Source: Aureispira sp. CCB-E (GTDB taxonomy: Bacteria; Bacteroidota; Bacteroidia; Chitinophagales; Saprospiraceae). Taken from it: 64,000 bases of DNA. Made by a program: the position numbers and the translations under genes. The stretch's first letter is position 1. Each line of letters starts with the position of its first letter. Shown here piece by piece: positions 29,399 through 42,790 of this stretch. The stretch spans positions 1,488,001-1,552,000 of the forward strand of contig NZ_CP133671.1 in NCBI RefSeq assembly GCF_031326345.1, written 5' to 3'. The notes under the pieces were generated by a model. That model saw nothing but the letters and a program-made list of their open reading frames with translations. It was not told the origin of the DNA and did not search any database.

Positions 29399-32300
29399 AT
29401 GCACGTAATTATGAAGAGAAAAATACACGCTTATCAGATAACCTTTATCCGATTATTACTAGTGGTATTGATTTCGTCCCATCTTCCTTTTAAAGCGGAC
29501 AGTCAAACGACAATTTCAGGTGTAGTAAATAGCTATACCAATGTAACAAGTGTCAACGTAGCACCTTGTGAAAGCTCTATCACAGTAGGAGATGCTTCGT
29601 TATTTTCACCAGGAGACAAAGCACTTATTATTCAAATGAAAGGAGCAGATGTAGATTTAACCAATACGGCTGCATTTGGCTCTATTACCAATTACAACAG
29701 TGCGGGGTTGTACGAGTTTTTTACAATTATTGATGTGAATGTAGGTGCCAATACAATTGTAACAGGTAGTTTTAACAATACTTACGATCCTGCAGGGTTG
29801 GTTCAGTTAGTTAGAGTACCTAGTTATGATAATGTCACCATCAATGGAAACTTAACTGGTCAAGCATGGAATGGTACTACTGGAGGAGTGATTGCAGTAT
29901 ATGCGACCAATACGGTTGATTTGGCAGCAGATATTGATGCTTCTCAACTTGGTTTTAGAGGGATCACAACACCTAGTTCAGCATCCAACTGTTTGGCAAC
30001 AGACTATTCTTTTAACAATACTAGCCCTGATGGGGCAGACAAAGGAGAAGGAATTGCTATTACAAATGCCAATTTTGCAAGAGGTCGAGGGGCATGGGCT
30101 AATGCTGGAGGAGGTGCCAATATCCACAATGCCGGTGGCGGTGGTGGTGGAAATGGCGGTGCTGGTGGTCGTGGTGGAGAGCAGTGGCAAGGCTGTGGAA
30201 ATACTTTAGCTGCTGGACCTAACCAATTTGCAACAGGAGGTGTTGGTGGACACGCCATGCCTATAGGACCTTCTTTTAACCGTTTGTTTTTAGGTGGAAC
30301 AGGAGGATCAGGAGATTCTAATAATGGTTTCGCTTCTAATAATACAGAAGGAGGAGGAATTGTAATTATTCGTGCTAGTCATTTAAATGGTAACGGTTTT
30401 ACGATTAGAGCAATCGGAGGAACGGTTCCTGTTAGTGCCAATGGGGCAATTGACGGTGGTTCTGGTGGTGGCGCTGGAGGAAGTGTTTGTTTGGATTTGC
30501 AAACAATTGGAGCATCTGCTTTAACAGTAGATGTTCATGGTGGAGATGGTCAAGATATTGATTATCGTGGAGATGATGCACACGGTCCTGGTGGCGGTGG
30601 CGGTGGTGGTATTTTGTGGCATAACTTACCAACCTTGCCTGCCAATGTAGTGGTGGTTAATAATGGAGGAAGAGAAGGTCGTATGTTACAAGCTCCTAAC
30701 GCTGGTACGCCTAATGGTGCTCTTGCTGGAGCATCAGGAAGAGTAATTACTAGTTTGGTTTTACAAGAAATAGATGATAGAGACAACGATGGTTTAAGTG
30801 CCAGTTGTGATATTGATGATGATAACGATGGTATTCCAGATGTTGTAGAAATTTGTGGTTTGGGAGCAACTGATTTTACTTGTGTAGGTGGAACAGATCC
30901 TGGATTAGATGATGACGGCGATGGTATTATTAATTACAGAGATCCTGATTATTGTGTTTTGAATGCTAATGGTGTGTGTGCCTCAATGGACACCGATGGT
31001 GATGGCGTGCCCAACCATTTGGATTTAGATGCGGATAATGATGGTATAGCAGATATTATAGAAGCTGGCGGTGTTGATACTGATGGAGATGGAGTTATTG
31101 ATAATGTTGTTGATCAAAGAATTCCAGGAGGATATTCAGAAAATAGTTGTAGTGCTACCCCTCTAACGATCACAAGTCCAACGACCTTAACGTTAACTGG
31201 AGATGGTAGTCAAGATATTGCTTTGCCATTTGCTTTTGAATATTTTGGAGTTCCGTTTGCGGGTAATTTACGTGTTAATATGAATGCTTGGGTTAGTTTT
31301 GATGCAATTGCACCCGCTTCTCCTTGGGTTCCTCAAACATTTCCAGATGCTACATACACCAATACTATTGCAATGAACTGGTCAGACCCTGAACCTCAGA
31401 ACGGAGGAACAGTACGTCATGGAACCAATGGTACTGCTCCAAACAGAGTGTTTATTTTAGAGTATGTTAATAATCCATTTTTCTCAGGAACAGGAACTAT
31501 TACAACGCAGCTTCAGTTACACGAAGGAACAAATGAAATAAGAATCGTAACAACTAACTTTAATCCTTCTACAGGTAGCTTCTCAATGGGATTAAACCAA
31601 AATGGTACAACAGCTTATACCATTACAGGAAGAAATAATGCGGTTTATAATATTACAACACCAGAATGTCGAGGGTTTACCTACACAGCAGGAGTTATTC
31701 CAAATGGATTAGCGGATATTTATGACGCAAATCCGCTGCCAGTTTTCGATACAGATGGTGATGGCATTCCTAACTTCTTAGATTTAGATGCGGATAATGA
31801 TGGCATTCCAGATATCGTAGAGGCAGGTGGAACAGATGCGAATGGCGATGGACGTGCCGATAATTACACAGACGAAGATAACGATGGTTTTAACGATGTA
31901 GTAGATGGTGATGTAGGGAATAATGGTACAGCAGAAAATACATCTAATGCACTGGTACTAACAGGTGCCGATGGTAATAATGACGGTCTTCCTGATAGTT
32001 ATCCAGCGAATGATACAGATGGTGATGGCATTTTAGATTATCTAGACTTAGATGCAGATAACGATGGCATTCCAGATGTAGTGGAAGCAGGAGGAACGGA
32101 TGTAAATGGCGATGGACGTGCGGATAATTATGCTGATGCGGATGGAGATGGTTTTAACGATGTAGTAGATGGTGACCCAACGAATGCATTGGCAGCAGGA
32201 ATAGATACGAATGGAGCGAATACATCAGATGCACTGATAGTAACAGGTGCAGATACCAATGGTGACGGTGCTCCGAATAGCTATCCAGAAGGTGATACGG

Positions 32301-35300
32301 ATGGAGATGGTGTTTTAGATTATCTAGACTTAGACGCAGATAACGATGGCATTCCAGATGTAGTGGAAGTAGGTGGAACGGATGTAAATGGCGATGGACG
32401 TGCGGATAATTATGCTGATGCGGATGGCGATGGTTTTAACGATGTAGTAGATGGCGATCCAACAAATGCTTTAGCGGCAGGAACAGATACGAATGGAGCG
32501 AATACATCGGATGCCTTACAATTGACAGGAACAGATACGAATGGCGATGGTGCGCCGAATAGCTATCCAGAAGGAGACATAGACGGTGATGGAGTGTTAG
32601 ATCAATTAGATTTAGACGCAGATAACGATGGCATTCCAGATGTAGTGGAAGCAGGAGGAACGGATGCAAATGGAGATGGACGTGCGGATAATTATGCTGA
32701 TGGGGATGGAGATGGTTTTAACGATGTGGTAGATGGTGACCCAACGAATGCATTGGCAGCAGGAACAGATACGAATGGGGCGAATACATCGGATGCCTTG
32801 CAATTGACAGCAACAGATACGAATGGCGATGGTGCGCCGAATAGCTATCCAGAAGGCGATACAGATGGCGATGGTGTTTTAGATCAATTAGATTTAGATG
32901 CAGATAACGATGGCATTCCAGATGTAGTAGAAGCAGGAGGAACGGATGTAAATGGCGATGGACGTGCGGATAATTATGCTGATGCGGATGGCGATGGTTT
33001 TAACGATGTGGTAGATGGCGACCCAACAAATGCTTTAGCAGTAGGAACAGATACGAATGGAGCGAATACATCGGATGCCTTGCAATTGACGGGAACAGAC
33101 ACGAATGGCGATGGTGCGCCGAATAGTTATCCAGAAGGGGATGCGGATAGAGATGGTGTTCTAGATTACTTAGACTTAGATGCAGATAACGATGGCATTC
33201 CAGATGTAGTGGAAGCAGGAGGAACGGATGTAAATGGCGATGGACGTGCGGATAATTATGCTGATGCGGATGGAGATGGTTTTAACGATGTAGTAGATGG
33301 TGACCCAACCAATGCGTTGGCAGCAGGAACAGATACGAATGGGGCGAATACATCGGATGCCTTGCAGTTGACAGGTGAAGATACCAATGGTGATGGTGCG
33401 CCAAATAGCTATCCAGAAGGTGATACGGATGGAGATGGTGTTTTGGATCAATTAGATTTAGATGCAGATAACGACGGGATTCCAGATGTAGTGGAAGTAG
33501 GTGGAACGGATGCAAATGGTGATGGACGTGCAGATAATTATGCTGATGCGGATGGAGATGGTTTTAACGATGTAGTAGATGGCGATCCAACAAATGCTTT
33601 AGCGGCAGGAACGGATACGAATGGAGCGAATACATCAGATGCCTTGTTATTAACAGGGGCAGATACCAATGGTGATGGGAAACCAAACAGTATGCCTAAC
33701 GGTGATTTGGATGGTGATAATGTATACAATCATTTGGATTTGGATGCCGACAACGATGGTATTTTGGATATCGAAGAAGCAGGTGGAATGGATGCGAATA
33801 GAGATGGTCAAGAAGATGCTTATGTGGATGCGGATGGAGATGGCTTTAATGATGTAGTAGATGGTGATCCAACGAATGCATTGGCAGCAGGAACAGATAC
33901 AAACGGAGCGAATAGTGCCAATGCGACTACTCGAACAGGAGCTGATACGGATGGCGACGGTGCACCGAATAGCTATCCAAATGACAACCAAGATGGTGAT
34001 AACAATTATAACTTCTTGGATATAGATGCAGACAACGATGGTATTGTTGATAATACAGAAGGACAAGCAACTAGTGCTTACATCGCACCCGATAATAACG
34101 ATGCGGATGGAGATGGAATAGACGATGCTTATGATAATGACGATGCTAATTTTGGTGGATCGGATTCAGGTATTATACCAAATAATCAAGATGGCGCAGC
34201 AGATAATCCAGATTATCTAGATTTGGATACCGACAACGATGGTATCGCGGATGCTATTGAAGGGCATGATACAAATGGTGATGATGTTGTAAATGGTACC
34301 GATAGTCCAAATGCCAATACAGGCTTATCAGGTGGTACAACTGACGCGGATGGTGATGGTTTGTTGGATGGTTATGATAACAATACAGCAAGTACCAATG
34401 CAACTAATACAGGATTGAATCCGAATGCTCATCCAGATGCTAAAAATGAGATTACAGTTGAGCGTGATTGGAGAGAGGGCAATACAACTTATGTTGTTAA
34501 CGATGTTAATTCGACACCATTAAATGTAACGGTTACAGGTAATGTCTTGACGAATGATTATGATCAAGAAGGAAATGTGCAAGGAGTGACTGGAAACATT
34601 GAAATCGATACAGATGGAGATGGCATCCCTGAAACAGGTGCTGGTTTAGGAACAGGAGTAACGGTTGGTGGTGTGAATGAAGATGGTACTCCAACTGCAA
34701 ACGCAGGAACCTTGACTCAAAATGCCGATGGTACGTATACTTTTGTCCCAACAACAGGCTTTGTTGGAGAAGTAACTTACCATTATCAAGCATGTGATAA
34801 TGCTACTCCTCAAATTTGTGGTGAAGCAGCTGTAACCATCGATGTAGAACCTGCTCCAACGACAGATAATGGAGAATTGGCTTTAGCACCAGATGTCAAT
34901 ACAACATACGATGATGTAGTGGTAAATGGTCAAGTGTTAGCAAATGACAATGACCCAGATGGTGATAATATTTTGGTAACAGGAAACATTCAAACAGATA
35001 CAGATGGTGATGGAACCGTAGATGCAACAGTAGCTCTAAGTACGCCAACAACAATTGGTGGCGTTGATCAAAAAGGGAACCCAGTTGTAAATGCAGGAAC
35101 CTTGACTCAAAATGCCAACGGTACCTATACTTTTGATCCTGTTGCTGGATTCATAGGTGTGGTAGAATATATTTACACGGCTTGTGATGATGGGACACCA
35201 ATTACTTGCGAACAAACAACGGTAACCATTAATGTTTTGCCAAGGGTGTATAATAGTACCAATGCAATAGATGACGAAGAGTTTGTAGACAAAGGAGCAA

Positions 35301-36610
35301 CTTTAAATGATAATGTTTTGGCAAACGATACGGATGTAGAGGGAGATAATCAAGTCGGTGGAGTGTCATTAGTGACAGGTCCGACCAATGGTAGTTTGAC
35401 CTTGAATCCAGATGGAACATACACTTACACGCCAACTGATCCTAATTTTGTTGGTAACGATGAATTTGTATACAGTGTATGTGACAATGGAAGCCCTCAA
35501 GTATGTGACACAGCAACTGTTTATATTACAATTTTGGATGTGAACAAGGATTATAGCGAAACTGGAGTTTATGGTGTGGCATGGCATAGAGCTATAAGAG
35601 ATGGTAACGGAGATAACGTATTAGACGGTGGTACCGATGTTTGGTTGGGATCAAATACAGATTTTGAAACAGGAAGCTTAGTATTAGATAACTTTGATGA
35701 TGGGATAACAATTGGTGCAGGTCCTGGAGAATTTCCTACTGCTGTGGTCGCTAATCAAGTATTTAACTTGGATATAACTGTTAATTCTACGGTTGCAGAT
35801 AATGTATTCTATGGTCTATGGATTGATTGGGATAACAATGGAGCGTATGACGATTTTTATACAGGAAACGTAGCAACAGCGAGCCCAACAACAACAACGA
35901 TTGCAGTAACGGTACCTGGAACATACAATGGGACCGAAACCGTGAATATTCGATTGAGAGCGGACGATGATGCATTTGCAGTAGGAGATTTTGCTGGAGG
36001 AAGAACGAATGGAGAGGTAGAGGATTATCAAGCATTGGTTGTCGATTTGCCAGTAGAGTTGTTATACTTCGATGCAAAATTGAAAGACAAAAACATTGGT
36101 GTCTTAAGTTGGGCAACCGAAAATGAATTGAATAATGCTGGTTATGAAGTAGAACATGCATTACCAACGACAGGAACACCTGTATTTGAGCAAATAGGTT
36201 ATGTAGATGGTGCAGGAACTACTTCAATGCAACAGTTTTATACTTACGAAGTACCTCGCTTAGTTTCAGGAGTACACTACTTCCGCTTGAAGCAAGTAGA
36301 CTTTGATGGCACATCGACTTATACTCAAATTCGAGCTTTAAGAGTAGAGGAAACTTTAGTTCAGAAGTTATTCCCAACGCTATTGCACCAAGGAAGCAAT
36401 ACTGTTTATATCCAAGTAGAGAAAGACGATAATTACAAGATAGAAGTACTGACAACTTTAGGACAAGTTGTAGAATCTTATACCAAAGAAATACAATCTA
36501 GCAATTATCACGAATTGAGATTGGCTACGGATCGTTATCCATCAGGAGTCTATTTAATACGAGTAAGTAATGGTACCAATGCATTTACTGAAAAAATAAG
36601 AATAGAATAG
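29399..36610 (+). CDS. Giant T9SS-secreted adhesin with calcium-type TSP3 repeats
   Basis: The 2403-residue protein starts with a signal peptide (the second Met, MKRKIHAYQ, may be the true start). In order it has a glycine-rich region (about 230-390), a first acidic DxDGDG block, an insert (about 580-780), then about eight 94-residue repeats dominated by DGDG, ADNDG and NGDGRADNY motifs of thrombospondin-type-3 calcium loops. Tandem Ig/cadherin-like domains ([16 protein letters not shown]) follow, then a GEVED domain ([17 protein letters not shown]) and a type A T9SS sorting domain. Calcium should stiffen the repeat shaft. It is probably displayed on the surface as an adhesin or matrix component. 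Confidence 0.88.
31750..34030 (+). repeat. Tandem 282-bp (94-codon) coding repeats
   Basis: About eight direct units of 282 bp (94 codons), nearly identical in the central copies and diverging at both ends. One unit starts near 32306 and the next near 32588. The protein unit contains [49 protein letters not shown] and [11 protein letters not shown]. High DNA identity implies recent expansion or active homogenisation. Confidence 0.85.
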
Positions 36611-38138: not shown

Positions 38139-38168
38139 TTGCGTCTTTTTTTCATGTTTTCGTCTATA
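38139..38168 (+). promoter_or_regulatory. Putative SigZ-type promoter 1 (autoregulation)
   Basis: TTGCGTC (38139-38145) and CGTCTATA (38161-38168) are separated by exactly 15 bases. The same two elements with the same spacing recur before arsM and before the thioredoxin-fold gene. The pattern fits the -35 and -10 boxes of an ECF sigma promoter, here 49 bp before the sigma gene itself. The role is inferred from recurrence; the motif is directly visible. Confidence 0.7.
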
Positions 38169-38217
38169 ACATGGTACTCTTTTGCATTTATTTAACCTAC
38201 AAAACATGTAACAAAAT

Positions 38218-38778
38218 ATGAATACTCTTATTGCTTGGAATAAAATCAATGCCCGATTAACGAATTTTGTTTTGGGCAAAGTAAAAGACAAGGATTTAAC
38301 AAATGATATCGTTCAAGATGTCTTCTTGAAAGTTTTTACTAAAATTGATACGTTGAAGGATAATAATAAATTAGTCTCTTGGATCTATCAAATAGCAAGA
38401 AATGAAATTATTTCACACTTTAGAAAAGTAAAGCACGATGGCTGGGAGGAAATTGAAATACCAGAGACTAAAAAGGAAACGCTCACCTCAGAGCTAGCAG
38501 AATGCCTACATCCCTTAATTGATACGCTGCCTGACAAATATAAGGAAGCTTTAATTTTAGCTGATATTGAAAAAGTCCCACAAAAAGAAATTGCCAAGAG
38601 ATTAAACATATCGTATTCAGGTGCTAAGTCACGTGTACAACGAGGTCGGGAAATGCTGAAATCAACTTTATATCAATGCTGTACCATTACCACAGATGTC
38701 TATGGAGATATATTGTATTATAAACAAAATAATTGCGAGGAAGGTAAGTCGAATAATTGTAAAATAAACTGTGATTAA
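38218..38778 (+). CDS. sigZ: ECF RNA polymerase sigma factor, SigZ type, with Cys-rich tail
   Basis: The 186-residue protein has region 2 (NDIVQDVFLKVFTKIDTLKD, SWIYQIARNEIISHFRK) and region 4 (LPDKYKEALILADIEKVPQKEIAKRLNISYSGAKSRVQRGREML). Unlike most ECF sigmas it continues for about 40 residues with five cysteines (C154, C155, C173, C181, C185) around DVYGDILYYKQNN; I associate this tail with the SigZ family. No anti-sigma gene lies beside it. It likely drives arsM, the downstream Cys-rich gene and itself through the repeated promoter. Sensing by the tail is an inference. Confidence 0.85.
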   Translation: MNTLIAWNKINARLTNFVLGKVKDKDLTNDIVQDVFLKVFTKIDTLKDNNKLVSWIYQIARNEIISHFRKVKHDGWEEIEIPETKKETLTSELAECLHPLIDTLPDKYKEALILADIEKVPQKEIAKRLNISYSGAKSRVQRGREMLKSTLYQCCTITTDVYGDILYYKQNNCEEGKSNNCKINCD

Positions 38779-38782
38779 CTTT

Positions 38783-38812
38783 TTGCGTCTTTTTTTTGAT
38801 AGGGCGTCTATA
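38783..38812 (+). promoter_or_regulatory. Putative SigZ-type promoter 2 (before arsM)
   Basis: TTGCGTC (38783-38789) and CGTCTATA (38805-38812) are again 15 bases apart. It lies only 5 bases after the sigma gene stop and 39 bases before arsM, so arsM can be transcribed from its own sigma-dependent promoter. Confidence 0.72.
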
Positions 38813-38850
38813 GGGTGAACGTAATATTAATCACTTAAAAAATAAATGTC

Positions 38851-39636
38851 ATGTCAAAAGAAATTAAAGATGCAGTTAAAAAAACGTATACAGAAGTCCT
38901 AAAGGCAGGTGTTGGTTGTGGCTGTGGTCCAACTTGTAGTACCTCTGATCAGAACTGGTCACTTAGCGAAAGTTATGAATCTATTGAAGGATACACCGAA
39001 GAGGCGGACTATGCGTTGGGTTGTGGAATTCCAACTAAAGATGCTAAAATTAAAGAAGGAGATACAGTGCTTGACCTTGGTTCTGGTGCAGGGAATGATG
39101 TTTTTGTTGCTCGTAGTTTGGTAGGCGAAAAAGGGTATGTTATTGGAGTTGATATGACGGAAGCAATGATTGCCCAAGCCAATAAAAATAATGAAAAACT
39201 GGGTTATCAAAATGTAGAATTTGTTTTAGGTGAAATTGAAGATTTGCCGATTGCGGAAAATTCGATTGACGTAGCTGTTAGCAATTGCGTGTTGAATTTA
39301 GTACCTGATAAATACAAAGCGTACTCCGAGGTTTACAAGGTTTTAAAACCTAATGGGCACTTTAGTATGTCGGATATTGTGTTGAGAGGAGATTTACCCA
39401 AAGGCATACTAGAGGCTTCAGAGATGTATGCAGGTTGTATTGCTGGTGCTATGCAAAAAGAGGATTATTTAGAGGCGATTAAAAGGGCAGGCTTTAAAAA
39501 CATTAAAGTAACGAAGGAGCGAGAAATTGAATTGCCTGATGAAATAGCACTTCAATATGCTACAAAAGAAGAGTTGGAAGCATTTAAAAAAGGAACCAAT
39601 GCCATTATTAGTATTGGTGTTTATGCTGAAAAATAA
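38851..39636 (+). CDS. arsM: Arsenite methyltransferase (ArsM)
   Basis: The 261-residue cytoplasmic protein has the SAM-binding motif DLGSGAG (75-81) and the four cysteine regions of arsenic methyltransferases: C23/C25/C29 in GCGCGPTC, C58 in LGCGIPT, C146 in SNCVLNL and C196 in AGCIAGAM. These thiols bind As(III) while methyl groups pass from S-adenosylmethionine. The MSDIVL and YAGCI segments are typical. The gene follows a sigma-dependent promoter, and the neighbouring Cys-tagged genes suggest one arsenic or thiophilic-metalloid module. Confidence 0.88.
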   Translation: MSKEIKDAVKKTYTEVLKAGVGCGCGPTCSTSDQNWSLSESYESIEGYTEEADYALGCGIPTKDAKIKEGDTVLDLGSGAGNDVFVARSLVGEKGYVIGVDMTEAMIAQANKNNEKLGYQNVEFVLGEIEDLPIAENSIDVAVSNCVLNLVPDKYKAYSEVYKVLKPNGHFSMSDIVLRGDLPKGILEASEMYAGCIAGAMQKEDYLEAIKRAGFKNIKVTKEREIELPDEIALQYATKEELEAFKKGTNAIISIGVYAEK

Positions 39637-39666
39637 TAGATAATAAGGCGTGGTTTCCTACTAACT

Positions 39667-39846
39667 TAAGTAATTGGTCAGAAAAAAATATATGAGAGTG
39701 TACTTTTTTCTGAACGATTACTTACGTGTTTAAGTAATCGTTCAGAAAAATTCTATAAACCACGCAGTAGCACTGTAGGTAAAACCGCACTGTTTGGTTA
39801 TACCTTTGGTATACTGTACCAAGCTCTCGCAGTTGCTACTACGTGG
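39667..39846 (+). repeat. Competing hairpins in the arsM-lyase spacer
   Basis: CTGAACGATTACTTA (within 39704-39724) pairs exactly with TAAGTAATCGTTCAG (39731-39745), and imperfectly with the upstream copy at 39667-39687. The two folds exclude each other. A further stem CCACGCAGTAGCA/TGCTACTACGTGG (39760-39772, 39834-39846, one mismatch) encloses a TATACC/GGTATA hairpin. The spacer 39637-39947 holds no gene. Confidence 0.6.
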
Positions 39847-39947
39847 TCACTGCGTTCATCAATTAGCACTAAAAATAAGGCTATTTTTTACCTATAATTT
39901 TTTATGCCTACTTACTTATAATGTAAAATTTAAAGAAAAAGATAAAA

Positions 39948-41243
39948 ATGGAAAATTCAAATAATTCAAACTGCTGCACACCTTCTACCAAAGCCAATTC
40001 AGAAGAAACTTGTTGCCCTCCAACAACTCAGAACCAACCTCAATCACTCGGCAATAATTTTGCTAAAAGCAATCCCAATTATCTAAAATCTATGTTTGGT
40101 AGAACGGACTTGATGCCTTTGTGGATTGCAGATATGGATTTCAAAGTAGCTGAACCGATCACGCAAGAATTGCAACGTTTGGTTAATAGAGGCAACTTTG
40201 CTTATGAATTCAACACGACCAAAGTGTTTGATGCTTTGGTGAATTGGAATGTGAAACGCCACAATTTAAAATTAGAAAGTCAGTCATTTATAGAGGTTAC
40301 CAGTGTCTTGACAGGAATAAGTCTACTGATTAGAGAGTTGTCTAAAGAGGGAGAAGGGGTATTGGTGCAAACTCCTGTTTATCATCAATTTTTCAAAGTT
40401 ATTCGATCAGCCAATCGAACGGTAGTAGAAAATCCATTACAGTTACGAAATGGTCATTACGAGATGGATTTTGAGGACTTAGAGCAAAAACTAAAAAGAT
40501 TAGATGTAAAAATCATACTACTTTGTAATCCACATAATCCTGTTGGTCGTGCTTGGAAAAAAAGAGAGTTGCAACAATTGGTTACCTTAGCCAATAAATA
40601 CAAGGTAAGAATCATCAGTGATGAAATTCACTCTGATATTATCTATTCCTATTCCAGTTTTAACAGCATAGCTTCCTTTGCTGATAATTCGCAACACATT
40701 GCAGTAATAGGAGCTCCCTCTAAAACGTTCGGAATGCAAAGTATCTCTAATGGCTACCTCTATGTGCCAGATATGGCCACATACAAGCAAGTAAAAAACA
40801 CCATCGGCTCTTTGTATCTTGATCATGGAAATGCTCTATCTTCTTATGCTACTTTGGCAGCTTATACCAAAGGTGAAGAATGGTTAGAGAAAACAATTTC
40901 GTACATAGAAGAAACAGTGAATTGGGTAGAAGGATATTTGAGAAATGAACTTTCAGAAGTAAAGCTCATACGTCCAGATGGCACTTACCAAATATGGTTG
41001 GATTTTAGTGCCTTGAATTTAGCACCAGATGAGTTGAATCAATTGATGATTCATTCTGCAAAATTAGCATTAACCCCAGGGACTTGGTTTGGTAGCAATG
41101 GAAGTCAATTTATGCGAATGAATATAGCTTCACCATTAGCGAAAATTCAAAGAGCATTTTATCAAATAAAAAAAGCGATTAAAGATGGAATAGGAAGTAC
41201 TACAAATACCAATATTAAATCTCCTAATTGCTGTGGTTGTTAA
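39948..41243 (+). CDS. PatB/MalY-type C-S lyase or aminotransferase with Cys tags
   Basis: The core (about residues 32-415) is a PLP fold-type I enzyme of the PatB/MalY group: LPLWIADMDF-type opening, LLCNPHNPVGRAW, SDEIHSDI and the PLP lysine K259 in GAPSKTFG. Such enzymes split cystathionine or cysteine conjugates, releasing a thiol, pyruvate and ammonia. Unusually, the N terminus is MENSNNSNCC...CCPP (C9, C10, C22, C23) and the C terminus is NCCGC. No canonical member I know carries such tags. They would bind soft metals or As(III). It follows arsM on the same strand. Confidence 0.82.
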   Translation: MENSNNSNCCTPSTKANSEETCCPPTTQNQPQSLGNNFAKSNPNYLKSMFGRTDLMPLWIADMDFKVAEPITQELQRLVNRGNFAYEFNTTKVFDALVNWNVKRHNLKLESQSFIEVTSVLTGISLLIRELSKEGEGVLVQTPVYHQFFKVIRSANRTVVENPLQLRNGHYEMDFEDLEQKLKRLDVKIILLCNPHNPVGRAWKKRELQQLVTLANKYKVRIISDEIHSDIIYSYSSFNSIASFADNSQHIAVIGAPSKTFGMQSISNGYLYVPDMATYKQVKNTIGSLYLDHGNALSSYATLAAYTKGEEWLEKTISYIEETVNWVEGYLRNELSEVKLIRPDGTYQIWLDFSALNLAPDELNQLMIHSAKLALTPGTWFGSNGSQFMRMNIASPLAKIQRAFYQIKKAIKDGIGSTTNTNIKSPNCCGC

Positions 41244-41266
41244 CAATAGCATCTAAACTCTCCTTT

Positions 41267-41296
41267 TTGCATCTTTTTATTTAAATCCCGTCTATA
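41267..41296 (+). promoter_or_regulatory. Putative SigZ-type promoter 3 (before the thioredoxin-fold gene)
   Basis: TTGCATC (41267-41273) and CGTCTATA (41289-41296) are 15 bases apart. The only change from the other two is G to A in the first box. It lies about 170 bases before the Cys-rich thioredoxin-fold gene. Confidence 0.72.
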
Positions 41297-41327: not shown

Positions 41328-41454
41328 TAGTTCGTCGAAATCATGCAGCTAAGTCTGAACTATTACGTAGTAGCACCAAAGATAGCTAGGTGATAGCTGA
41401 GTAGGCTTGCACTAGTAGTAGAAAAGAGCTGTTCATGGAGTAATCAACGAACTA
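41328..41454 (+). repeat. Long inverted repeat in the leader of the thioredoxin-fold gene
   Basis: TAGTTCGTCGA (41328-41338) and TCAACGAACTA (41444-41454) are inverse with one mismatch and enclose about 105 bases. The whole structure lies between the putative promoter and the start codon, so it would be part of a structured mRNA leader. Confidence 0.5.
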
Positions 41455-41469
41455 CTAATCTTAAATAAT

Positions 41470-42072
41470 ATGGAAAATTCAAATTGTTGTTCACCCAATC
41501 AAAATAATACTACCAATTGTTGCCCTTCTACGGAAACTAAAAAAGTGAGGGTAAAAAAAAGCATTGGTTTCTTTGTTTTAGGTTTGGCTTTTGTTTTTGC
41601 AATTTCGTCCGCATTTAGAACTGCTACGAGTGCTAATGATATGGGAGCTATGCCACCATCAATCGAAGATTTTGAATGGATGAAAACAGATAAAGAAGTT
41701 GCTTATGTTTTCATAAAAGGGGATGAAAAAGAAGCAAACGAAGCGTTGTCTTCCAAAGTTTTGGCTATTGTAGAAGATCTGAATGAAACAGATGGCTCAG
41801 CAGAATATTTTGAGTTATTTCCTTCCCTTAAGTATTACAATAGTTTTATAGCAACGATAGGTGTAGAAACAACTCCTTCAATTGTTGTACTTGGTAGACT
41901 AGGAACGCTTTCTATTGTAAATAGTGAATCTGCAAGTTCCATGAAGTTGTATAAAGCTTATATGGCGGCAATAACCCCTCCAGCATCTTGTGCTTCCTCT
42001 AAAAACTGTAAACCATCATCATCTTGTACACCTGCACAAAAAGCAAAGTGTGCTACAAAAAATAACAATTAG
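41470..42072 (+). CDS. Membrane-anchored thioredoxin-fold protein with N- and C-terminal Cys tags
   Basis: The 200-residue protein begins MENSNCCSPNQNNTTNCCPS, the same type of tag as the neighbouring lyase (C6, C7, C17, C18). One membrane segment follows (about 31-50), then a thioredoxin-like domain without CxxC but with a cis-Pro-like TTPSIVVLG. The tail carries four cysteines (C174, C180, C186, C194). One tag therefore faces the cytoplasm and the tail the periplasm if the helix is a simple anchor. The CcdA-like gene follows within two bases. I recognise no named family. Confidence 0.72.
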   Translation: MENSNCCSPNQNNTTNCCPSTETKKVRVKKSIGFFVLGLAFVFAISSAFRTATSANDMGAMPPSIEDFEWMKTDKEVAYVFIKGDEKEANEALSSKVLAIVEDLNETDGSAEYFELFPSLKYYNSFIATIGVETTPSIVVLGRLGTLSIVNSESASSMKLYKAYMAAITPPASCASSKNCKPSSSCTPAQKAKCATKNNN

Positions 42073-42073
42073 G

Positions 42074-42790
42074 ATGTTAGAAAGTATTCAACAATGGTCA
42101 GGTGGGATTATTGAAAGTCAACTGAATTCACCACTTTTTTTTGTTGCCGTCTTTTTCTTAGGGCTTATTGCTGCGGTCGGCTCATGCTGTAACATTGGAG
42201 TAGTTGCAGCAGTAACAGGCTACGCAGGTACAGGTGCTCAAAGGATGGATAATAAATCTCATTTCAAAACAGGAGTATCCTTTTTTTTGGGTAATGTTAT
42301 CTCTTTATCTTTGCTTGGAGCATTAACAGGCTTTGTGAGTCAGTCGTTAGGTGCTACGGTGGGGGAGTACTGGAAGATAATTGCAGGTTTATTAGTCGTT
42401 TGTTTTGGGCTAATAAGCCTCGATATGTTTCCTTTAAAACTAAAGTTAGGGGATTCGTTAAGCACAAAGCTTAATGCATTAGCTAATAAAGGATTTCTTT
42501 TTGGTTTAGCCTTGGGAGGTTTCGCTACTGCTTGTTCTGCTAGTTGTAGCCCTATTTTTCCTATCATTTTAGGAACATCTTTTTTGCAAGGAAGTATTGT
42601 ATGGAGTTGGTTGACGCTCTTCGTATTTGCCATTGGGTATAGCCTCCCTTTGGGGGGCATATTAGTTGGTGTTGGATTTGGGTTTGATAAATTTTTAGAA
42701 AAATTAATGATTAATAAAACGATATTCAACAGCATTTTTGGAGTGCTAATGGTTGTTGTTGGATTTGGATTATTATTGGGTTTTGTTTAG
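42074..42790 (+). CDS. CcdA/DsbD-like membrane thiol transporter
   Basis: The start chosen is the ATG two bases after the preceding stop; a longer in-frame reading would overlap that gene. The 238-residue protein has about six membrane segments. Conserved cysteines lie in AAVGSCCNIGVV and TACSASCSPIF, the paired pattern of CcdA/DsbD central domains that carry reducing equivalents across the membrane. It is translationally coupled to the Cys-tagged thioredoxin-fold protein, which may be its partner. The family also contains exporters, so export of a thiol-metalloid conjugate is an alternative. Confidence 0.8.
   Translation: MLESIQQWSGGIIESQLNSPLFFVAVFFLGLIAAVGSCCNIGVVAAVTGYAGTGAQRMDNKSHFKTGVSFFLGNVISLSLLGALTGFVSQSLGATVGEYWKIIAGLLVVCFGLISLDMFPLKLKLGDSLSTKLNALANKGFLFGLALGGFATACSASCSPIFPIILGTSFLQGSIVWSWLTLFVFAIGYSLPLGGILVGVGFGFDKFLEKLMINKTIFNSIFGVLMVVVGFGLLLGFV

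Follow-up and report, generated by a model that had tools for sequence, protein, structure and literature searches.

Within the 64,000-nucleotide stretch analyzed here (the window; positions 1,488,001 to 1,552,000 of contig NZ_CP133671.1, assembly GCF_031326345.1, forward strand), Aureispira sp. CCB-E carries a small gene cluster that joins a gene for an extracytoplasmic function (ECF) sigma factor of the SigZ family to a gene for an arsenite methyltransferase-like protein (ArsM) and to genes for proteins with Cys-rich tags. The pattern TTGCRTC-N15-CGTCTATA has three exact matches in this cluster, all on the plus strand, before sigZ, before arsM, and before a gene for a Cys-tagged thioredoxin-fold protein. 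Judged by sequence, these sites, named P1 to P3, are very probably promoters of a type read by SigZ, which would include autoregulation of sigZ. The features of the cluster, in window positions, are as follows:

38139 to 38168, plus strand: P1, SigZ-type promoter (TTGCGTCTTTTTTT...CGTCTATA, spacer 15) before sigZ, predicted to be autoregulatory; exact match
38218 to 38778, plus strand: sigZ, ECF sigma factor of the SigZ family, 186 aa (TIGR02959, Sigma70_r2, Sigma70_r4_2)
38783 to 38812, plus strand: P2, SigZ-type promoter between sigZ and arsM; exact match
38851 to 39636, plus strand: arsM, arsenite methyltransferase-like (predicted activity), 261 aa, above the cut-off of the ArsM subfamily model NF008823/PRK11873 (315.9 against 263 bits)
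39645 to 39920, no strand assigned: repeat element with inverted repeats in the gap between arsM and patB, recognized by its matches in the same genome and not part of the regulon as such
39948 to 41243, plus strand: patB, PatB-family C-S lyase with Cys-rich N- and C-terminal tags (TIGR04350, 368.7 bits, cut-off 340)
41267 to 41296, plus strand: P3, SigZ-type promoter before the Cys-tagged thioredoxin-fold gene; exact match
41470 to 42072, plus strand: thioredoxin-fold protein of 200 aa (fold assigned from structure matches) with Cys tags and, by eye, a probable membrane anchor
42074 to 42790, plus strand: DsbD/CcdA-type membrane protein (DsbD_TM, PF02683, 41.0 bits over 42077 to 42790; start assigned by eye to an in-frame ATG)

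All three sites have a spacer of exactly 15, and the last base of the site lies 50 bases from the start codon of sigZ, 39 from that of arsM, and 174 from that of the thioredoxin-fold gene. An exact scan returned no further copy in the window and 100 dinucleotide shuffles returned none at all, in agreement with the original prediction, which had reported three sites with a spacer of 15 and no other copy in the window. With up to three mismatches, one extra window match appears (25276, minus strand), at a level where the shuffles average 2.25. The rest of the genome (7,391,627 bases, 99.93% complete) holds no copy at zero or one mismatch. At exactly two mismatches, there are 19 extra places, against 11 for the reversed pattern; two of the 19 are of interest and are described below, and most of them were treated as chance level and not individually inspected.

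P1 to P3 fall within a 3.2-kb span and have a T-run in common, as might be expected if they had arisen by chance or by local duplication of an AT-rich stretch. Against such an origin, the shuffles are empty, the spacer and flank sequences of the three sites differ, and the position of the sites is conserved across phyla. Chance is ruled out by the shuffles together with the 296-genome test and the backwards-read controls described below, and we give this explanation as a whole a negligible probability.

The arrangement recurs in relatives (L numbers are our handles for loci and regions, G numbers for genomes). Aureispira sp. CCB-QB1, whose genome is the nearest named one in the set of loci returned, encodes an identical SigZ and has the same three sites. 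A site with zero or one mismatch also precedes sigZ in L089, L090, and L092 to L097, and a P3-like site precedes the thioredoxin-fold gene in L093, L094, L097, and L098. No separate promoter for patB was found within the window, and co-transcription with arsM is presumed; L092, a relative, has the motif directly before patB. The thioredoxin-fold protein has no Pfam or NCBIfam match, and its core appears by eye to be without Cys. In its structural model, the predicted local distance difference test (pLDDT) score of the core is 89 to 96 by tens, with poor ends, and the top PDB matches are thioredoxins (best E 2.1e-4, template modeling score to target 0.6 to 0.7). The Cys tags are common to the window protein and seven relatives.

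Several further features of the locus were noted in passing. The repeat at 39645 to 39920 has 62 local matches in its own genome, two of them to itself, and the arsM-patB gap contains a 20-nt perfect inverted repeat (arms 39705 to 39724 and 39731 to 39750). Between P3 and the thioredoxin-fold gene lies an element (41328 to 41454) with 11-nt inverted repeats that are 91% complementary; elsewhere in the genome, it has a 72% match that covers about 90 bases, as well as four short matches. This element may account for the 174-base leader of the gene, the corresponding gap being 22 to 29 bases in four relatives. The adjoining open reading frame (ORF; 29399 to 36610, 2403 aa) contains, by eye, numerous nearly identical DxDGDG-type repeats and has a C-terminus of the secretion type. 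Among the relatives, a ccdA-like gene is split into two ORFs (L098:9172-9889) and one sigZ ORF is short (L162:4316-4759), possibly through frameshifts or assembly errors.

Shape of the probable promoter

Four positions that the pattern does not query are T in 98 to 100% of 46 spacer-15 sites and in 82 to 96% of 50 spacer-16 sites, and the extended motif reads TTGCGTCYTTTT-N10/11-CGTCTATA, with TTGCGTCYTTTT as its upstream box. The -35 element of Bacillus subtilis SigW is described as T-36 GAAAC-31 X TTT-27, and that of a B. subtilis SigZ promoter as having C at -34 (PMC6713349). In our own alignment, TGCGTCYTTT matches the SigW element position for position, as T-36 GCGTC-31 Y TTT-27, and the C-34 of B. 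subtilis SigZ fits TGCGTC. The T-rich run, which the original prediction had placed in the flank, therefore belongs to the motif as part of an ECF -35 element, given both this alignment and the 82 to 100% T at the unqueried positions. The two -35 elements differ in that the core AAA of TGAAACXTTT in SigW is swapped for CGT in TGCGTCYTTT, and this swap of GAAAC to GCGTC may yield a natural orthogonal ECF promoter.

As a rule, ECF promoters carry CGT in the -10 box. The sites described here do so as well, and combine it with -35 and -10 boxes at fixed spacing and with a -35 box that has a T-rich 3' end. Near sigZ, the distance from TTGCRTC to the CGTC box is 15 in 35 cases and 16 in 37 (72 of 76), and all other spacings from 4 to 30 account for four cases in total. 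The spacing of 15 in the original prediction thus holds for the three window sites but is not a universal value. Downstream, 57 of 77 driven ORFs begin 18 to 52 bases 3' of the -10 box. The SigZ loci of one Bacteroidota family (L173, L175, L176, L177, and L183) keep the usual TTGCGTCTTTTT box, followed by a -10 box of variant sequence, CGACTACA.

The same motif could in principle be the operator of a DNA-binding regulator of which SigZ is merely a neighbor. CGTC can be read in both boxes, which makes a direct-repeat operator conceivable, and ArsR-type genes occur near some SigZ genes. Against this stand the spacing and the distances to the driven ORFs, as well as a -35 half that fits ECF -35 grammar and the placement of sites before sigZ itself. 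In the genome comparisons below, moreover, every exact site in 296 genomes belongs to a SigZ genome, and the next most shared neighbor family, arsM, is present in 40 loci, SigZ being in all 80 by the choice of loci. Because the spacing is rigid at 15 or 16 and no other gene family tracks the motif as widely, we reject the operator, which we regard as very improbable, in favor of a promoter read by SigZ.

Linkage of the motif to sigZ across genomes

The comparison covered 80 SigZ loci, the best 80 among at least 589 relatives of SigZ. Judged by their titles, they represent about nine phylum-level groups, and they include near-duplicates (L140, L144, L145, and L150 from Marinifilum; L157 and L158 from one contig; L088, which is close to being the window itself). 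A sense site with up to two mismatches and a spacer of 15 or 16 lies within 250 bp after sigZ in 49 of the 80 loci and within 250 bp upstream of it in 24, against expectations of 0.29 and 0.32 whose background rates include sites that may be real; the same scans of the opposite strand gave two and one. Anywhere in the locus, a site with up to two mismatches is found in 67 of 80 (39 of 45 Bacteroidota and 28 of 35 others), against 2 of 80 when the sequences are read backwards.

A weight matrix extends this result. Since its training sites came from the window's pattern, we use leave-one-locus-out results for the 80 loci: 133 sites spread over 79 loci, with a site close to sigZ in 68 loci, whereas the backwards-read sequences of 3 loci yield 4 sites. 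Applied to further Bacteroidota SigZ loci (L168 to L197), the matrix finds sites in 26 of 30, against none of 30 backwards; a string scan of these loci, under rules that admit some three-mismatch sites, gives 21. For the regions L068 to L087, some of which overlap training loci, the figures are 16 of 20 and 2 of 20, and a string scan shows a site in nine (that in L076 probably by chance) and none in 11.

Whole genomes point in the same direction. The SigZ family model matches 44 of 296 Bacteroidota genomes at E ≤ 1e-30, and the exact extended motif TTGCRTCYTTTN{11,12}CGTCTA is present in 10 of the 296, all of them among the 44; with kinship ignored, the chance of 10 out of 10 is 2e-9 and rises to 1.4e-8 when the genome of origin is left out. 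All 13 exact sites lie within 5 kb of sigZ, and the reversed pattern gave two sites. Among the genomes of 148 relatives, 35 match at up to one mismatch, and the four with an exact match (the genome of origin, G032, G055, and G094) all have sigZ; the remaining one-mismatch matches were treated as chance level and not individually inspected. Ten of 23 named genomes have a site exact to TTGCRTCYTTN{12,13}CGTCTA. A family search of Bacilli finds SigZ at E ≤ 1e-30 in 4 of 200 genomes, and of the four loci, L229, L230, and L232 have a site under loose rules and L231 has none.

Taken together, the sequence comparisons support the motif and its ECF geometry, the way it accompanies SigZ in different phyla, the assignments of the driven genes, and the Cys signature. 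The proposal that these are ECF promoters of the neighboring SigZ, one of them before sigZ itself, has held up through the TIGR02959 match, the linkage across phyla, and the rigid spacing of 15 or 16. Occurrence at many unrelated genes, which had been named in advance as the finding that would speak against it, was looked for and did not appear with either the exact or the core pattern. A promoter that is tied to SigZ, readable by eye, and present across phyla makes SigZ function reducible to a simple reporter experiment.

Genes behind the sites

The original prediction had called the regulon of three sites complete. This did not stand: the core pattern TTGCRTCYTT-N12/13-CGTC finds five sites in the Aureispira genome, the three of the window and two distant ones, against none in the control. 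The core had been loosened with both distant sites already known, so the total of five serves as a description and not as an independent test. The distant features, with G000 standing for the genome of origin, are as follows:

G000:C1:1180865: fourth site, 345 kb from sigZ, with the ATG of a Cys-rich peptide gene 58 bases downstream
L233:4954-5133: Cys-rich peptide gene behind the fourth SigZ-type site, 59 residues with 10 Cys and a signal-like start
G000:C1:5961087, minus strand: fifth site, imperfect (TTGCGTC...TTGCGTCTTTT), with the second sigZ 180 bp downstream
G000:C1:5960379-5960900 (L075:8353-8904), minus strand: second sigZ, 41% identical and over the family cut-off (SigZ also given as 5960379-5960885)

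For the peptide gene, the stricter pattern TTGCRTCYTTN{12,13}CGTCTA, fixed before the gene was examined, found the counterpart site in CCB-QB1, and a matrix built from other loci has its only match in that 10 kb at the peptide site, with 19.3 bits.

The second sigZ bears on which factor reads the sites. P1 to P3 might be read mainly by another sigma factor, above all by the second SigZ, making the two a cross-regulated pair in place of an autoregulated factor. Its place over the family cut-off and the related site upstream of its gene are what such a pair would require, and the second SigZ could indeed read the same sites, a point that counts against autoregulation. Nevertheless, 42 of the 44 SigZ-positive Bacteroidota genomes have a single match at E ≤ 1e-30, and in single-sigZ genomes with an exact site, the site still lies beside sigZ. 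Inspection by eye of the stretch listed shows no ArsM-like neighbor of the second sigZ. We consider a cross-regulated pair unlikely and retain the SigZ of the cluster as the factor that would read P1 to P3.

In the 80 loci, there are 103 sites with up to two mismatches, some of them likely chance matches and 18 without an ORF of 80 aa. They stand before ArsM-like genes in 33 cases and before sigZ in 25, before a thioredoxin-fold gene in five, and before a gene cluster whose two tested members are DUF2703 proteins in another five; four precede an 84- to 109-residue Cys-rich ORF in Marinifilum, and three a flavoprotein (the two tested are Pyr_redox proteins, one weakly like YpdA and ArsO). Short ORFs were called by rule, which leaves the identity of some driven genes uncertain. 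Several of the 18 sites precede short Cys-rich ORFs. Tiny Cys-rich ORFs of 34 to 55 residues with 11 to 14 Cys stand behind sites in L111 to L114, L118, and L135; a Paenibacillus-type one is present in L134 and L166, with a similar one in L160 and more in L180 to L182, and the range for such peptides overall is 26 to 93 residues. Three of them, scanned against NCBIfam, gave no match. Their place behind such a promoter marks these small, unannotated Cys-rich peptides as likely metal(loid) binders.

The median Cys content of driven genes other than sigZ is 3.1%, against 1.1% in neighbors (76 against 748, p 3.5e-15), and at least two CC pairs are found in 37 of the 76 and 78 of the 748, with near-duplicates and at least one sigZ ORF (L109) among the 76 and with sigZ and arsM among the 748. 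DUF2703-type proteins with Cys-rich N-termini follow sigZ in several Bacillota (L119, L122, L141, L231, and L232). In L119, the DUF2703 model is over its cut-off and the DF family (seleno)protein model below, the other four being assigned by similarity or by eye; these neighbors of sigZ provide a lead on DUF2703.

Proposed sensing by SigZ and comparison with known systems

SigZ passes the cut-off of the SigZ family model TIGR02959 (175.2 against 168.65 bits) and falls under that of the other SigZ model, NF007215 (184.9 against 212). Sigma70_r2 and Sigma70_r4_2 are both over their cut-offs, the ECF architecture of regions 2 and 4 only. An AlphaFold model (mean pLDDT 84.9, predicted template modeling score 0.52) has helical domains at 3 to 73 and 89 to 154. 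Residue 96 lies in helix 89 to 101, at the start of the region-4 domain, and residues 154 and 155 lie at the end of the last region-4 helix, beyond which the chain forms a short hairpin and then a loose tail. All of these positions are Cys, and they are widely conserved among 80 SigZ proteins (the window protein and those of 79 loci): C96 in 71, C154 and C155 in 76 each, and C181 in the tail in 74. From residue 154 on, there are five Cys, a Cys-rich C-terminal extension of the kind that marks CorE-like factors (former ECF44). General family scans of seven window proteins, without a search by anti-sigma models, revealed no anti-sigma family, and none was recognized by eye in gene clusters common to at least four SigZ loci, again without a dedicated model search.

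From these features, we infer a mechanism in which SigZ would bind at P1 to P3 and transcription would start there. P1 to P3 would be promoters read by the SigZ encoded between P1 and P2, and the sensor would lie within SigZ itself, in the linker Cys, the Cys-Cys pair just after region 4, and the Cys-rich tail. These cysteines would bind a thiophilic metal(loid), most likely arsenite, and binding would change the conformation of SigZ such that RNA polymerase is directed to the extended motif. SigZ would then transcribe its own gene from the predicted promoter at 38139 to 38168, the own-promoter site expected of an autoregulated ECF factor, in a positive feedback loop. It would also transcribe arsM with the downstream C-S lyase gene, the genes for the Cys-tagged thioredoxin-fold protein and the CcdA-like protein, and, far from the cluster, the gene for the Cys-rich peptide with the signal-like start. 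As a whole, and with the promoter step weighted most, this chain, a self-sensing and self-activating sigma factor like CorE, appears likely. Of its later steps, direct Cys-based sensing by SigZ is somewhat less secure but still probable, and arsenite is modestly favored as the main signal here.

The case for arsenite rests on the genes nearby. ArsM-like genes are the commonest driven class, and one lies within 4 kb of sigZ in 42 of the 80 loci. ArsR-type, ArsC-like, and Acr3-like genes recur in seven, six, and four of the 80 neighborhoods; with one member tested per cluster, HTH_5 is over its cut-off, arsC_pI258 reaches 57 bits (cut-off 174), and Acr3 reaches 310 bits (cut-off 283). A competing possibility, less likely than arsenite but to be taken seriously, keeps the same promoter and the same SigZ and differs in the signal, which would be another thiophilic ion (Cd, Zn, Cu, Hg, or Sb) or thiol/sulfur stress, possibly depending on the lineage. 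Cys-rich peptides bind many metals, which suits this possibility. Because 38 of the 80 loci have no ArsM-like gene within 4 kb and some have genes for heavy-metal ATPases or resistance-nodulation-division (RND) pumps close to sigZ (by eye, four neighborhoods each), the signal may vary, or a different thiophilic metal may take that role. The related factors CorE and CorE2 sense Cu and Cd/Zn, respectively, as described in PMC3107203 and PMC8999054.

Those 38 loci and the ATPase and pump genes also weigh against the proposed mechanism, as do several other findings. The Aureispira genome has no Acr3 over the cut-off, only a 39-bit relative, and some driven genes are not Cys-rich, namely a PAP2 phosphatase and a possible efflux protein (by eye). 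The linker of SigZ contains a single Cys, Cys96 in ELAECLHPL, and no CXC as in CorE. The matrix finds no site in L142, the sole such locus among the 80, in 4 of the 30 loci L168 to L197, or in 4 of the 20 regions L068 to L087. The exact pattern is absent from 34 of the 44 SigZ genomes, in many of which looser scans find variants of the motif, for example with a -10 box of CGACTACA.

A broader proposal, to which we give even chances, is that SigZ is a widespread, anti-sigma-free, direct sensor of arsenite through its own cysteines in many phyla. Its ancestral regulon would have consisted of tiny Cys-rich peptides, in effect arsenic metallothioneins, and ArsM, and Cys tags would have been grafted onto the C-S lyase and the thioredoxin-fold protein in an Aureispira-like lineage.

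Among the papers listed by a limited literature search, none deals with a link between SigZ and arsenic or with the motif; the ECF classification or the ECF Hub may give a predicted motif for ECF238. The link to ECF238 is drawn from PMC9239204, in which that group is "also called SigZ". B. subtilis SigZ belongs to the same TIGR02959 family and served as the positive control of that model; the table of a 2023 review lists no role for it (PMC10141391). Relative to B. subtilis SigZ and ECF238, the present analysis adds to the family a promoter found across phyla and a predicted metal(loid)/thiol regulon. SigW of B. subtilis has the membrane anti-sigma factor RsiW, whereas the scans described above recognized none near SigZ.

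A close parallel is with CorE-like factors, which are described as using a C-terminal Cys-rich domain to sense copper, cadmium, or zinc and as having no linked anti-sigma genes; CorE and CorE2 of Myxococcus xanthus, former ECF44 and within ECF238, show partial autoregulation and a metal-handling regulon (PMC3107203, PMC8999054). SigZ resembles these factors, as described there, in its Cys-rich C-terminal extension, in the promoter-like site before its own gene, and in the metal-handling genes of its predicted regulon. The linker of CorE, however, has a CXC, whereas SigZ has one linker Cys and a CC pair directly after region 4. The CorE -35 element is defined around AAC (PMC3107203), in contrast to GCGTC for SigZ, and the described CorE targets are a copper oxidase and ATPases, in contrast to arsM and Cys-rich peptides here. 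Because the linker CXC is missing, we do not assign SigZ to the CorE-like ECF44 factors and say that it would work like CorE, not that it is a CorE. ArsR-controlled ars operons overlap with the SigZ loci in gene types (arsM, with ArsC-like, Acr3-like, and ArsR-type genes nearby). Those operons are governed by a repressor, whereas the predicted control here is by an activating sigma factor, which points to metalloid control by such a factor in place of the ArsR repressor.

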